Of a DNA stretch of 64,000 nucleotides, positions 21,994 through 25,150 are shown piece after piece. The stretch comes from Saprospiraceae bacterium. Its GTDB lineage: Bacteria; Bacteroidota; Bacteroidia; Chitinophagales; Saprospiraceae. The notes below the pieces were generated by a model. That model saw only the letters and a program-made list of their open reading frames with translations, searched no databases and was not told where the DNA came from. Every line of letters starts with the position of its first letter. Positions within the stretch are counted from its first letter, which is position 1. The position numbers and the translations under genes are program-made. The stretch covers positions 1 through 64,000 of the forward strand of contig JALWSS010000026.1 of the NCBI GenBank assembly GCA_026993525.1, given 5' to 3'.

Positions 21994-22974
21994 ATGAAAA
22001 AAATAGGGATACTTTTCGGTAAAGAGCGCACCTTTCCAAAGGCCTTTGTTGAGCGCATCAATTCAAAACACATAAAGGGTATTGCGGCAGAGCCGGTAAC
22101 CGTTGATGAAGTATTCATGAACAAGCCAACCGGTTATGCCGTCATTGTGGATCGCATCTCACAGGATGTCCCGTTTTACAGGGCTTATCTGAAAAACGCT
22201 GCTGCTACGGGCACGGCTGTGATCAACAACCCTTTCTGGTGGAGTGCTGATGAGAAGTTCTTCAACAATGTGCTGGCAGAGCAGATTGGAGTGCCGGTTC
22301 CCAAAACGGTATTGCTGCCCAGCAAGGAGCATCCCGACGATACTTCTTCTGAGAGCTTCTCCAACCTGAAATTCCCCCTGGAATGGGAAGAGATGCTCGA
22401 ATACCTGGGAGGCTTCCCGGCGTTCATGAAGCCCCACGCCGGTGGCGGGTGGAAGAATGTTTACAAAGTGGACAGTTGGGCCGAGGTGTTCAATGCCTAC
22501 AATGAAACCGGTCAGTTGGTCATGATGTTTCAGGAAGCCGTTGACTTTGAAGCGTACTTCCGTTGTTATTGCATAGGCAGAAAGCACGTGCGGATCATGC
22601 CCTACGAACCCCGCAATCCGCATCACCTCAGATACGTGGCAGACTTTGATGTGCCGGACGAACTGATGGCCACCATGGAAGATTACGTCATCAGGCTGTG
22701 TGAAGCGCTTGGCTATGATTTCAATACGGTGGAATTTGCTGTTAGGGACGGGGTTCCCCTTGCCATTGACTTCTGCAATCCGGCTCCGGACGCCGATGTA
22801 GATTCGGTCGGAAAAGAAAACTTTGAATGGGTGGTGGAGACCGCAGCCAACTACGCCATAGAAAGGGCCCAACAATACCAGGAAGGCAAAATGAACCTTA
22901 CCTGGGGCACATTTGTAAGAGATGCCGTTGGTGCTACCACAAAAAAGCGCACCAGAACGGCGAAAAAGAAATAG
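21994..22974 (+). CDS. ATP-grasp ligase, RimK-like, first gene of a ligase cluster
   Basis: The 326-residue protein has the ATP-grasp fold: N-terminal domain, then the ATP-binding lobe with K146-P147 and the glycine loop AGGGWK (149-154). Next come FQEAVDFEAYFRCYCIG, and metal ligands E247 (TVEFAV), D259 and N262 (AIDFCNP). Enzymes of this class join a carboxylate to an amine with ATP, through an acyl phosphate. The tail is a basic run of Lys, Arg and Thr. The ATG at 21994 is chosen because upstream residues look random. Four bases separate its stop from the next start, so the three genes form one operon. The substrate is unknown. Confidence 0.9.
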   Translation: MKKIGILFGKERTFPKAFVERINSKHIKGIAAEPVTVDEVFMNKPTGYAVIVDRISQDVPFYRAYLKNAAATGTAVINNPFWWSADEKFFNNVLAEQIGVPVPKTVLLPSKEHPDDTSSESFSNLKFPLEWEEMLEYLGGFPAFMKPHAGGGWKNVYKVDSWAEVFNAYNETGQLVMMFQEAVDFEAYFRCYCIGRKHVRIMPYEPRNPHHLRYVADFDVPDELMATMEDYVIRLCEALGYDFNTVEFAVRDGVPLAIDFCNPAPDADVDSVGKENFEWVVETAANYAIERAQQYQEGKMNLTWGTFVRDAVGATTKKRTRTAKKK

Positions 22975-22978
22975 TCCT

Positions 22979-23839
22979 GTGAAAGGTATCAGCAACCCCG
23001 GGGAATTGGCACATCTGCCCAAGGTGAAAGTGGCCCTCGTTGATATGTATGAGGGAACGCCCAACCTCGGCATGAAGAACCTGAAAAAGCTCATCCACGA
23101 GTTTCAGGCTGAGCTCGAACTTGAAGTTTTTGATGTCAGGTCAAAGATCCAGGTACCCGATCTGAGCCACGACATTTACATTTTTTCCGGTGGCCCCGGT
23201 AATCCGCTGGTGGGCGATGAGGCCTGGCTGACACCTTTTCACAATTTGATAGACCAGTTGTGGAACCACAACAAGAATCCGGACAGCACGAGGAAATTTG
23301 CCTTTTTTATCTGCCACTCTTTCCAGATGGCCTGTCACCATTTTGGAATCGGGAGCATCACCCGGCGTCGGGAAAAGTCTTTTGGCATTTTTCCGGTTTA
23401 CAAAACGGAGGAAGGAAAAAAGGAGTGGCTGTTGTCTGAATTGTCCGACCCGTTTTGGGTGGGTGACTTCAGGGAGTTTCAGGTGGTGGACCCCAATTAC
23501 GACCGAATGGAAGATTTGGGGGTCAAGCTGCTTTGTATAGAGAAAGAGCGAAAGCACCCGGAACTGCCGAGAGCCATGATGGCAGTGCGGTTTTCTGAAG
23601 AAATGGTCGGCACCCAGTTTCACCCCGAAGCCGATCCGGCAGGTATGCGGGTTTACTTTTTTGAAGAAGAGCGAATAAAAGCCGTCATTGAGGAATACGG
23701 TGCGGATGCCTATTTCAAAATGGTGGAAAGACTAAAAGACCCTGACAAGTTGGCCAGAACCTACAAGCTCGTGTTGCCTTTGTTCCTGTACAGATCAATG
23801 AAGGAACTGCGACAAAGAGCTGTGGTACACAAAACCTAA
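22979..23839 (+). CDS. Class I glutamine amidotransferase-like protein
   Basis: The 286-residue protein (GTG start) has a class I glutamine amidotransferase fold: GGPGN at 71-75, nucleophile Cys112 in FICHSFQMACHHFG and the His-x-Glu pair H215/E217 in TQFHPEADP. In known enzymes this triad frees ammonia from glutamine or hydrolyses gamma-glutamyl bonds. The elbow reads ICHSFQ instead of the common CxGxQ. About 65 extra residues follow the His/Glu motif. Its place between two ATP-grasp proteins suggests it supplies ammonia to, or trims the product of, the ligases, which is inference. Confidence 0.85.
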   Translation: MKGISNPGELAHLPKVKVALVDMYEGTPNLGMKNLKKLIHEFQAELELEVFDVRSKIQVPDLSHDIYIFSGGPGNPLVGDEAWLTPFHNLIDQLWNHNKNPDSTRKFAFFICHSFQMACHHFGIGSITRRREKSFGIFPVYKTEEGKKEWLLSELSDPFWVGDFREFQVVDPNYDRMEDLGVKLLCIEKERKHPELPRAMMAVRFSEEMVGTQFHPEADPAGMRVYFFEEERIKAVIEEYGADAYFKMVERLKDPDKLARTYKLVLPLFLYRSMKELRQRAVVHKT

Positions 23840-23865
23840 ACACACACTCATCATCTTTGTGAGTC

Positions 23866-25068
23866 ATGATCCCGCATTTGAGAGAGGATTTCAACGCCAA
23901 CTTTTCCGAAGAAAAGTATGATAAGCTGATTGCACAAATCGGGCAAATGGCCGGGGAGCGCCCCGGTTTTCGAGTATGTGAAACGCCCATCTTCGTGCCG
24001 GAAAAGTTATCCCGCCAATTGCTGGAGGCCTGTGAAAGCCTTGCCGGTTTCATCTGCCGGCCTGATTTCAAAGAGCTGTCGGAAGGGGCCCTGCTGCCGG
24101 AGAATTTTGTTCCCGGAGAGACCGAACACACGGCTTTTCTGATGATGGATTTTGGCCTGTGCCTGGGTGAGGATGGTGAGATTTCTCCCCAATTGATCGA
24201 GGTACAGGGCTTTCCTTCTTTGTTTTTGTACCAGGATTTGCTGGCTCGCAGTTACAGGGAGGTCTTTGATATTCCGGATGAGATGCCTCACCTGTTTGGT
24301 GTTTCCGAAGAGGAGGAATACATCCGGAAACTTCGGAATACGATTGTTGGTGATTCGAATCCGGAAAATGTTGTTTTGCTCGAAATCTTTCCGGAAAAGC
24401 AAAATACAAGGGTGGATTTTTGGCTGAACGAAAAACTGCTGGGTATCAAAGTGGTCAATATCACTGACCTGAAAGTGGAAGGCAGAACCGCCTATTACAT
24501 TGACGAAAGGGGACGAAGAGTAGTGGTTGAGCGGTTGTACAACCGCACCATTTTTGACGAACTCTACAAATACCGGGACCTCAACAGAGAGTTTTACTTT
24601 CAAAAAGAATACGATTTCAGATGGGTGGGCCATCCCCACTGGTTTTTCAGGATCAGCAAACACACCTTGCCATACCTCAAAGGTCCGTACGTTCCTGAAA
24701 GCTGGTTCCTGAATGAGTGGGAAGGAGGTTTTGATCAGCTTGAGGACTATGTGTTGAAGCCTTTGTATTCGTTTTCCGGACAGGGGGTTATCCTCAGTCC
24801 TGCCCGGTCCGATATTGAAAATATCCCGGAAGGAGAGCGGTCCAATTACATCCTTCAGAAAAAAGTTAAATACGCTCCGGTCATTAAAACGCCGGATGAA
24901 CCTGCCAGGGTGGAAATAAGGATGATGCACATTTGGGAGCAGGATGCTCAGCGGCCTGAGTTGTTGATCAGCCTCATTCGCCTGAGCAAAGGGGAAATGA
25001 TAGGGGTGCGATACAACAAGGACAGAACCTGGGTGGGTAGCAGTGCTGCTTTTTTCGAAATGCCCTGA
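23866..25068 (+). CDS. ATP-grasp-like protein, probably circularly permuted
   Basis: The 400-residue protein has no ordinary family signature but carries ATP-grasp-like elements in an unusual order. An acidic segment QLIEVQGFPSLFLY (E112), like the metal-binding strand of ATP-grasp enzymes, comes first. A strand VVVERLYNRTIFDEL (220-234) follows. The nucleotide-binding stretch YVLKPLYSFSGQGV (K298-P299, G305, G307) and VEIRMM (E350, R352) come last. This order resembles the circularly permuted ATP-grasp ligases related to glutathionylspermidine synthetase. It starts 26 bp after the amidotransferase stop, in the same operon. The call is inference from motif order. Confidence 0.7.
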   Translation: MIPHLREDFNANFSEEKYDKLIAQIGQMAGERPGFRVCETPIFVPEKLSRQLLEACESLAGFICRPDFKELSEGALLPENFVPGETEHTAFLMMDFGLCLGEDGEISPQLIEVQGFPSLFLYQDLLARSYREVFDIPDEMPHLFGVSEEEEYIRKLRNTIVGDSNPENVVLLEIFPEKQNTRVDFWLNEKLLGIKVVNITDLKVEGRTAYYIDERGRRVVVERLYNRTIFDELYKYRDLNREFYFQKEYDFRWVGHPHWFFRISKHTLPYLKGPYVPESWFLNEWEGGFDQLEDYVLKPLYSFSGQGVILSPARSDIENIPEGERSNYILQKKVKYAPVIKTPDEPARVEIRMMHIWEQDAQRPELLISLIRLSKGEMIGVRYNKDRTWVGSSAAFFEMP

Positions 25069-25110: not shown

Positions 25111-25150
25111 AAAAAAAGTCCCCGGCTGCCGATGGCGGCCGGGGCTTGTT
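25111..25150 (-). terminator. Terminator of the hemD transcript
   Basis: CCCCGGCTGCC pairs with GGCGGCCGGGG around GAT. The seven A at 25111-25117 become a T-run on the minus strand, so it ends the leftward hemD-DUF4271 transcript. The plus side has only CTTGTT and may end the ligase operon less well. Confidence 0.85.

Follow-up and report, generated by a model that had tools for sequence, protein, structure and literature searches.

Which reaction sequence could require two carboxylate-amine ligases and an amidotransferase-like protein encoded side by side, and do the three genes concerned form a complete unit? This question is raised by a locus from the genome of a Saprospiraceae bacterium. 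The window analysed here, a stretch of 64,000 nucleotides, carries three genes (A, B and C, Table 1) that lie head to tail on the forward strand, with gaps of 4 bp between A and B and of 26 bp between B and C. The open reading frames, coordinates and gaps had been correctly given in a preliminary description made from the sequence. B starts with a GTG codon at 22979, which fits the point, near residue 15, where homology begins in the relatives.

Table 1. Features of the A-B-C locus (positions in the window)
Feature	Position	Strand	Description	Basis
gene A	21994..22974	+	326 aa ATP-grasp ligase, RimK/LysX/ArgX fold	model, VIA, alignment
gene B	22979..23839	+	286 aa class I GATase-like Cys hydrolase/amidotransferase, GTG start	Pfam GATase, alignment of 20
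gene C	23866..25068	+	400 aa circularly permuted ATP-grasp ligase	model, VIA, invariant residues
GC-rich inverted repeat CCCCGGCTGCC-GAT-GGCGGCCGGGG	25120..25144	.	possible terminator, located between the convergent genes C and hemD	seen in sequence

The genes that flank the locus encode a bifunctional-nuclease-domain protein, a short-chain dehydrogenase, HemD and a DUF4271 protein. They are unrelated to A-B-C, and no evident functional tie between them and the three genes was seen. Consensus scans for promoters and terminators gave matches that do not rise above the level of shuffled sequences; the inverted repeat downstream of C was missed by the scan presumably because it carries no T-run. 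A defence system was rejected, PADLOC having given no match to A, B, C or the GCS2-family ligase found in related loci (see below). In the same way, a plasmid-borne element and a viral origin were rejected, as plasmid records contain no relative of A or C and viral structures yield no match to C.

Structure searches with AlphaFold2 models now support the ATP-grasp fold of A and the permuted ATP-grasp fold of C, which had first been assigned from the letters alone. For A (pLDDT 89), the search gave VIA Z scores of 20-23 against RimK, LysX and ArgX, with an rmsd of 2.6-3.3 over about 240-267 residues. Its alignment reveals the conservation of K146, of a glycine-rich loop (150-152) and of E247, D259 and N262, the last two being arranged as D259xxN262. 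No family of Pfam or NCBIfam is reached by A at curated cut-offs: the NCBIfam models rimK_fam and LysX_arch give 29 bits (cut-off 143.4) and 23.3 bits (cut-off 275.6), and Pfam R2K_2 gives 15.7 bits (gathering score 26.2), this last value being the reason why membership of the R2K clade was rejected. A resembles RimK, LysX and ArgX in its fold and in a weak match to rimK_fam, but differs from them by a family score far under the cut-off and by a D-x-x-N-P-A-P-D motif at the place where RimK has ExN. Its C-terminal tail is rich in Lys and Arg (TTKKRTRTAKKK), and several relatives have a longer version. A distant homologue of A (31%), encoded at L084:7131-8099, has a degraded ATP-binding lysine and glycine loop and is, from its sequence, perhaps a non-catalytic paralogue.

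The model of C (mean pLDDT 93.4) has as top VIA matches YgiC (7uk8, Z 25.8), human GSS (24.8) and the E. coli glutathionylspermidine (Gsp) synthetase (24.4). More generally, Foldseek and VIA-align group it with YgiC, YjfC, the glutathione and homoglutathione synthetases and the glutathionylspermidine and trypanothione synthetases (Z 20-26 over 313-370 residues). With canonical ATP-grasps, the match is confined to residues 163-400 of C, which pair with the N-terminal 200-250 residues of those proteins; this indicates that C is circularly permuted. Although C shares nearly its whole length with the fold of YgiC/YjfC, Gsp synthetase and eukaryotic glutathione synthetase, it is only 7-16% identical to them, matches no Pfam family (and, in NCBIfam, only one unrelated model below threshold), has other operon partners and carries an invariant ExQ, E112xQ114, where glutathione synthetases have ExN. 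Together with D95, K298, Q331, E350xR352, R372 and N384, which are also invariant, these residues are likely to be those that bind ATP and metal. In PMC12568646, YgiC and YjfC are termed bacterial peptidylpolyamine synthetases, with reference to work on a peptide-spermidine ligase.

For B, the amidotransferase-like character and the C112/H215/E217 set initially noticed were both borne out. Pfam GATase (PF00117) is its best curated match, with 28.3 bits for a cut-off of 22.8, and C112, Q116, D163, R165, Q168, H215 and E217 are invariant in an alignment of 20 B homologues. Profile comparisons also matched the putative GATase 3l7n and the homoserine O-succinyltransferase 2vdj. B thus exceeds the Pfam cut-off of class I glutamine amidotransferases and retains their Cys-His-Glu set. 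Unlike these enzymes, it has the nucleophile elbow FICHSFQ instead of GxCxGxQ, the Cys and the Gln at C+4 alone being retained, an invariant D163-x-R165...Q168 loop and, apparently, no fused or dedicated synthetase.

Chance does not explain the grouping of A, B and C: relatives of these genes are kept across the phylum and, for the most part, lie in clusters. In a sample of 148 Bacteroidota genomes, 58 have a strong match to A, 40 have B and 49 have C; A is present in 40/40 of the genomes with B and in 48 of the 49 with C (Fisher p < 1e-21), and it accompanies GCS2 in 49/51, phylogeny not being accounted for in any of these co-occurrences over the 148 genomes. Among the 61 genomes that make up the sample of nearest relatives, B and C are either both present (31, with the two genes adjacent in 25) or both absent (30). 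The family f25 mostly lacks the genes; three of its genomes (G166, G189 and G201) each carry A, B, C and GCS2, while the other f25 genomes listed have none of the four beyond a weak match. The view that two carboxylate-amine ligases and an amidotransferase-like protein belong to one unit is correct, and its genes are kept together phylum-wide.

This unit is larger than the three genes that had been taken as complete. In most relatives, among them Pedobacter, Dyadobacter and Algoriphagus, a YbdK/GCS2 ligase gene separates A from B, and one or two esterase genes lie upstream; these additional genes were missed when the window was considered by itself. The full operon comprises four to six genes, and its usual order is divergent esterase E2, esterase E1, A, the GCS2-family carboxylate-amine ligase, B and C. 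Within 10 kb of A, the 80 named loci that were surveyed include GCS2 at least 61 times, E2 at least 56, C at least 43, B at least 42 and E1 at least 36, these counts being lower bounds since several contigs are short. The order A-GCS2-B-C is found in about 30 of the 80 loci. The arrangement A-B-C without GCS2 occurs in six, mostly from Saprospiraceae or from Bacteroidota resembling the nearest relatives of the window. The GCS2 gene, part of the full operon in most relatives, encodes a carboxylate-amine ligase of the YbdK type (PF04107, NF010039), its product reaching 552 bits against NCBIfam NF010039 for a cut-off of 371.

Unlike these relatives, the window and the entire genome from which it comes (G000) are devoid of YbdK/GCS2, with no match to PF04107 at E 0.001; a search of the same genome for a GshA-type glutamate-cysteine ligase (PF04262) gave no match either. 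The earlier remark that no standard partner is nearby thus holds for the window but not for the relatives, whose operon includes a gene of the glutamate-cysteine ligase family. As G031, a genome of the same family, harbours E1-A-GCS2-B-C, the simplest account is a loss of GCS2 in the lineage of the window. In gene content, A-B-C is a reduced, GCS2-less version of the phylum-wide operon. A full-length homologue of E1 (L192, G000:C170:7691-8404; 34%) lies on another contig, away from A-B-C. For E2, the window genome gave merely partial matches (31-35%), and an orthologue was rejected on this ground. In two other genomes of the same family (G016 and G035), a GCS2-like gene (505-516 aa) is directly followed by a gene for a C-like permuted ATP-grasp (L188:3449-6303 and L189:2263-5046). 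This two-gene unit is paralogous, its C-like protein being 25-27% identical to C.

With a probability of roughly 0.6, we consider A-B-C to be the remnant or derivative, without GCS2, of a phylum-wide non-ribosomal amide-ligase operon organised as E2, E1, A, GCS2, B, C. The enzymes of such an operon probably assemble a small peptide or amide and trim it, most likely through a non-ribosomal gamma-glutamyl/peptidyl-amide pathway in which two to three ligases act sequentially and B is an amidase or an ammonia donor. As established for their superfamilies, each of the ATP-grasp and GCS2 enzymes is expected to activate a carboxylate as an acyl phosphate, which is then joined to an amine. In the full pathway, GCS2 would produce a gamma-glutamyl amide (gamma-Glu-X), to which A, an enzyme of RimK/LysX fold, would attach an amino acid via an acyl phosphate. 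C would form a second amide bond, probably one that caps the carboxylate of a peptide with an amino acid or an amine; a polyamine could be its substrate, as in YgiC/YjfC. B would act on the product or on an intermediate, from which it would split off an amide or gamma-glutamyl group; less likely, it would supply ammonia from glutamine.

Gene content, folds, conservation of the catalytic residues, joint retention and the lack of GCS2 are observed; the order of these reactions, their substrates and the roles of B and of the esterases are those that we infer, and the likeness of the modelled A and C to known ligases does not fix the reaction. Two features count against the scheme: in C, the Gln of E112xQ114 and, in B, the Gln at C+4 together with the HPE motif, which would suit ammonia supply as well. 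As the GCS2 step is missing from the genome of the window, the carboxylate used there by A and C would be made elsewhere or would not be gamma-glutamylated, and a gamma-glutamyl product cannot be assumed for a genome without GCS2. The suggestion that the genes may serve an undescribed peptide or amide pathway remains the best reading, and no group of orthologues with an assigned pathway came to light.

The operon could further be viewed, with somewhat less than even confidence, as an unrecognised phylum-wide small-molecule amide pathway made of exchangeable modules, leading either to a glutathionylspermidine-like gamma-glutamyl peptidyl-amine or to an unrelated peptide amide. The modules in question would be two families of permuted ATP-grasp for one slot, a GATase-like or M29-like hydrolase and an optional GCS2. 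All 10 of the genomes that have A but lack C encode in its stead, directly between A and B, another permuted ATP-grasp, termed CPL, which is akin to CP_ATPgrasp_2 and the structure 3n6x. Profiles of C and CPL align, with low probability, only in the C-terminal region around KPxxxxxGxGV; as they are barely alignable, the two were not considered as orthologues and are taken as different families of permuted ATP-grasps. Similarly, two loci without B (L057 and L064) have an M29-peptidase-like gene in its slot.

This last replacement bears on the role of B. This protein might be a true glutaminase subunit that provides ammonia to A or C; the ligases would then be ammonia-dependent amide synthetases, and the unit would yield a carboxamide (primary amide) from a small acid or from a peptide. 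The intact Cys-His-Glu set, the conserved Gln at C+4 (Q116) and HPE motif, with which ammonia supply fits too, the GATase family as best curated match and the direct vicinity of the ligases in most loci are all consistent with such a role. However, the elbow departs from GxCxGxQ, and even though B is clustered with A/C in most genomes, 18 of the 58 genomes with A keep A, GCS2 and C without B. Furthermore, B is encoded away from A/C in family f34, and a peptidase-like gene takes its slot in two genomes. This patchy occurrence, the separate site and the peptidase-like substitute speak for a hydrolase rather than for an ammonia donor on which the ligases depend, and make the glutaminase role rather unlikely.

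A glutathione-type thiol pathway that had escaped recognition appears improbable. GCS2 would be its gamma-Glu-Cys ligase, A or C would stand for glutathione synthetase, and C could be glutathionylspermidine-like. The family membership of GCS2, the fold that C has in common with eukaryotic glutathione, homoglutathione and Gsp/trypanothione synthetases and the paralogous GCS2-like/C-like unit of G016 and G035 agree with this possibility, but the window genome has A, B and C while lacking both glutamate-cysteine ligase families (PF04107 and PF04262), and curated glutathione synthetase models match neither A nor C. Still less probable is a RimK-like tagging of proteins with amino acids or amines that B and the esterases would take off. 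In its favour, RimK and LysX/ArgX, whose substrates are carboxylates of proteins or carrier proteins, are among the closest folds of A. Against it, the ORFs of at least 90 aa surveyed in the operon include no conserved, recurrent gene for a small carrier or target (a shorter carrier could escape), and characterised GCS2/YbdK and glutathione-synthetase-type ligases use small molecules.

The preferred reading, a non-ribosomal operon that makes a small peptide or amide, has known counterparts: linked ATP-grasp and COOH-NH2 ligases are referred to in PMC4431377, and the present operon resembles multi-ligase amidoligase operons of this kind in associating several unrelated amide ligases with an inferred successive action. 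In the open-access literature searched, we found no description of the set formed by a RimK-fold A, GCS2, a GATase-like B and a permuted C; the amidoligase survey of Iyer et al. 2009, outside the literature covered, may mention it. About two fifths of the Bacteroidota genomes in the sample carry A, among them those of the easily cultured Pedobacter and Dyadobacter, and two enzymes of the operon (A and C) belong to no curated family despite their wide occurrence. If the operon yields one conserved metabolite, this compound would be spread across a major environmental phylum while being unnamed in the literature covered. The pattern of swapped or lost modules lends itself to the assignment of individual steps by gene deletion.

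Other genes adjoin the operon in some genomes. At L072:4637-7240, a sodium:solute symporter (SSF) and C form an in-frame fusion in which C is the rear part, and a homologous symporter gene adjoins C at L173:6790-9369, in a related genome. This linkage could be a hint at substrate transport or could be due to chance; as it concerns two genomes of one family only, the symporter was not retained as a general partner. A YtcJ-type amidohydrolase gene (PF07969) directly adjoins C in families f42 and f45 (L080, L081, L083 and L177-L182); in L065 and L070 its neighbour is GCS2 or B.
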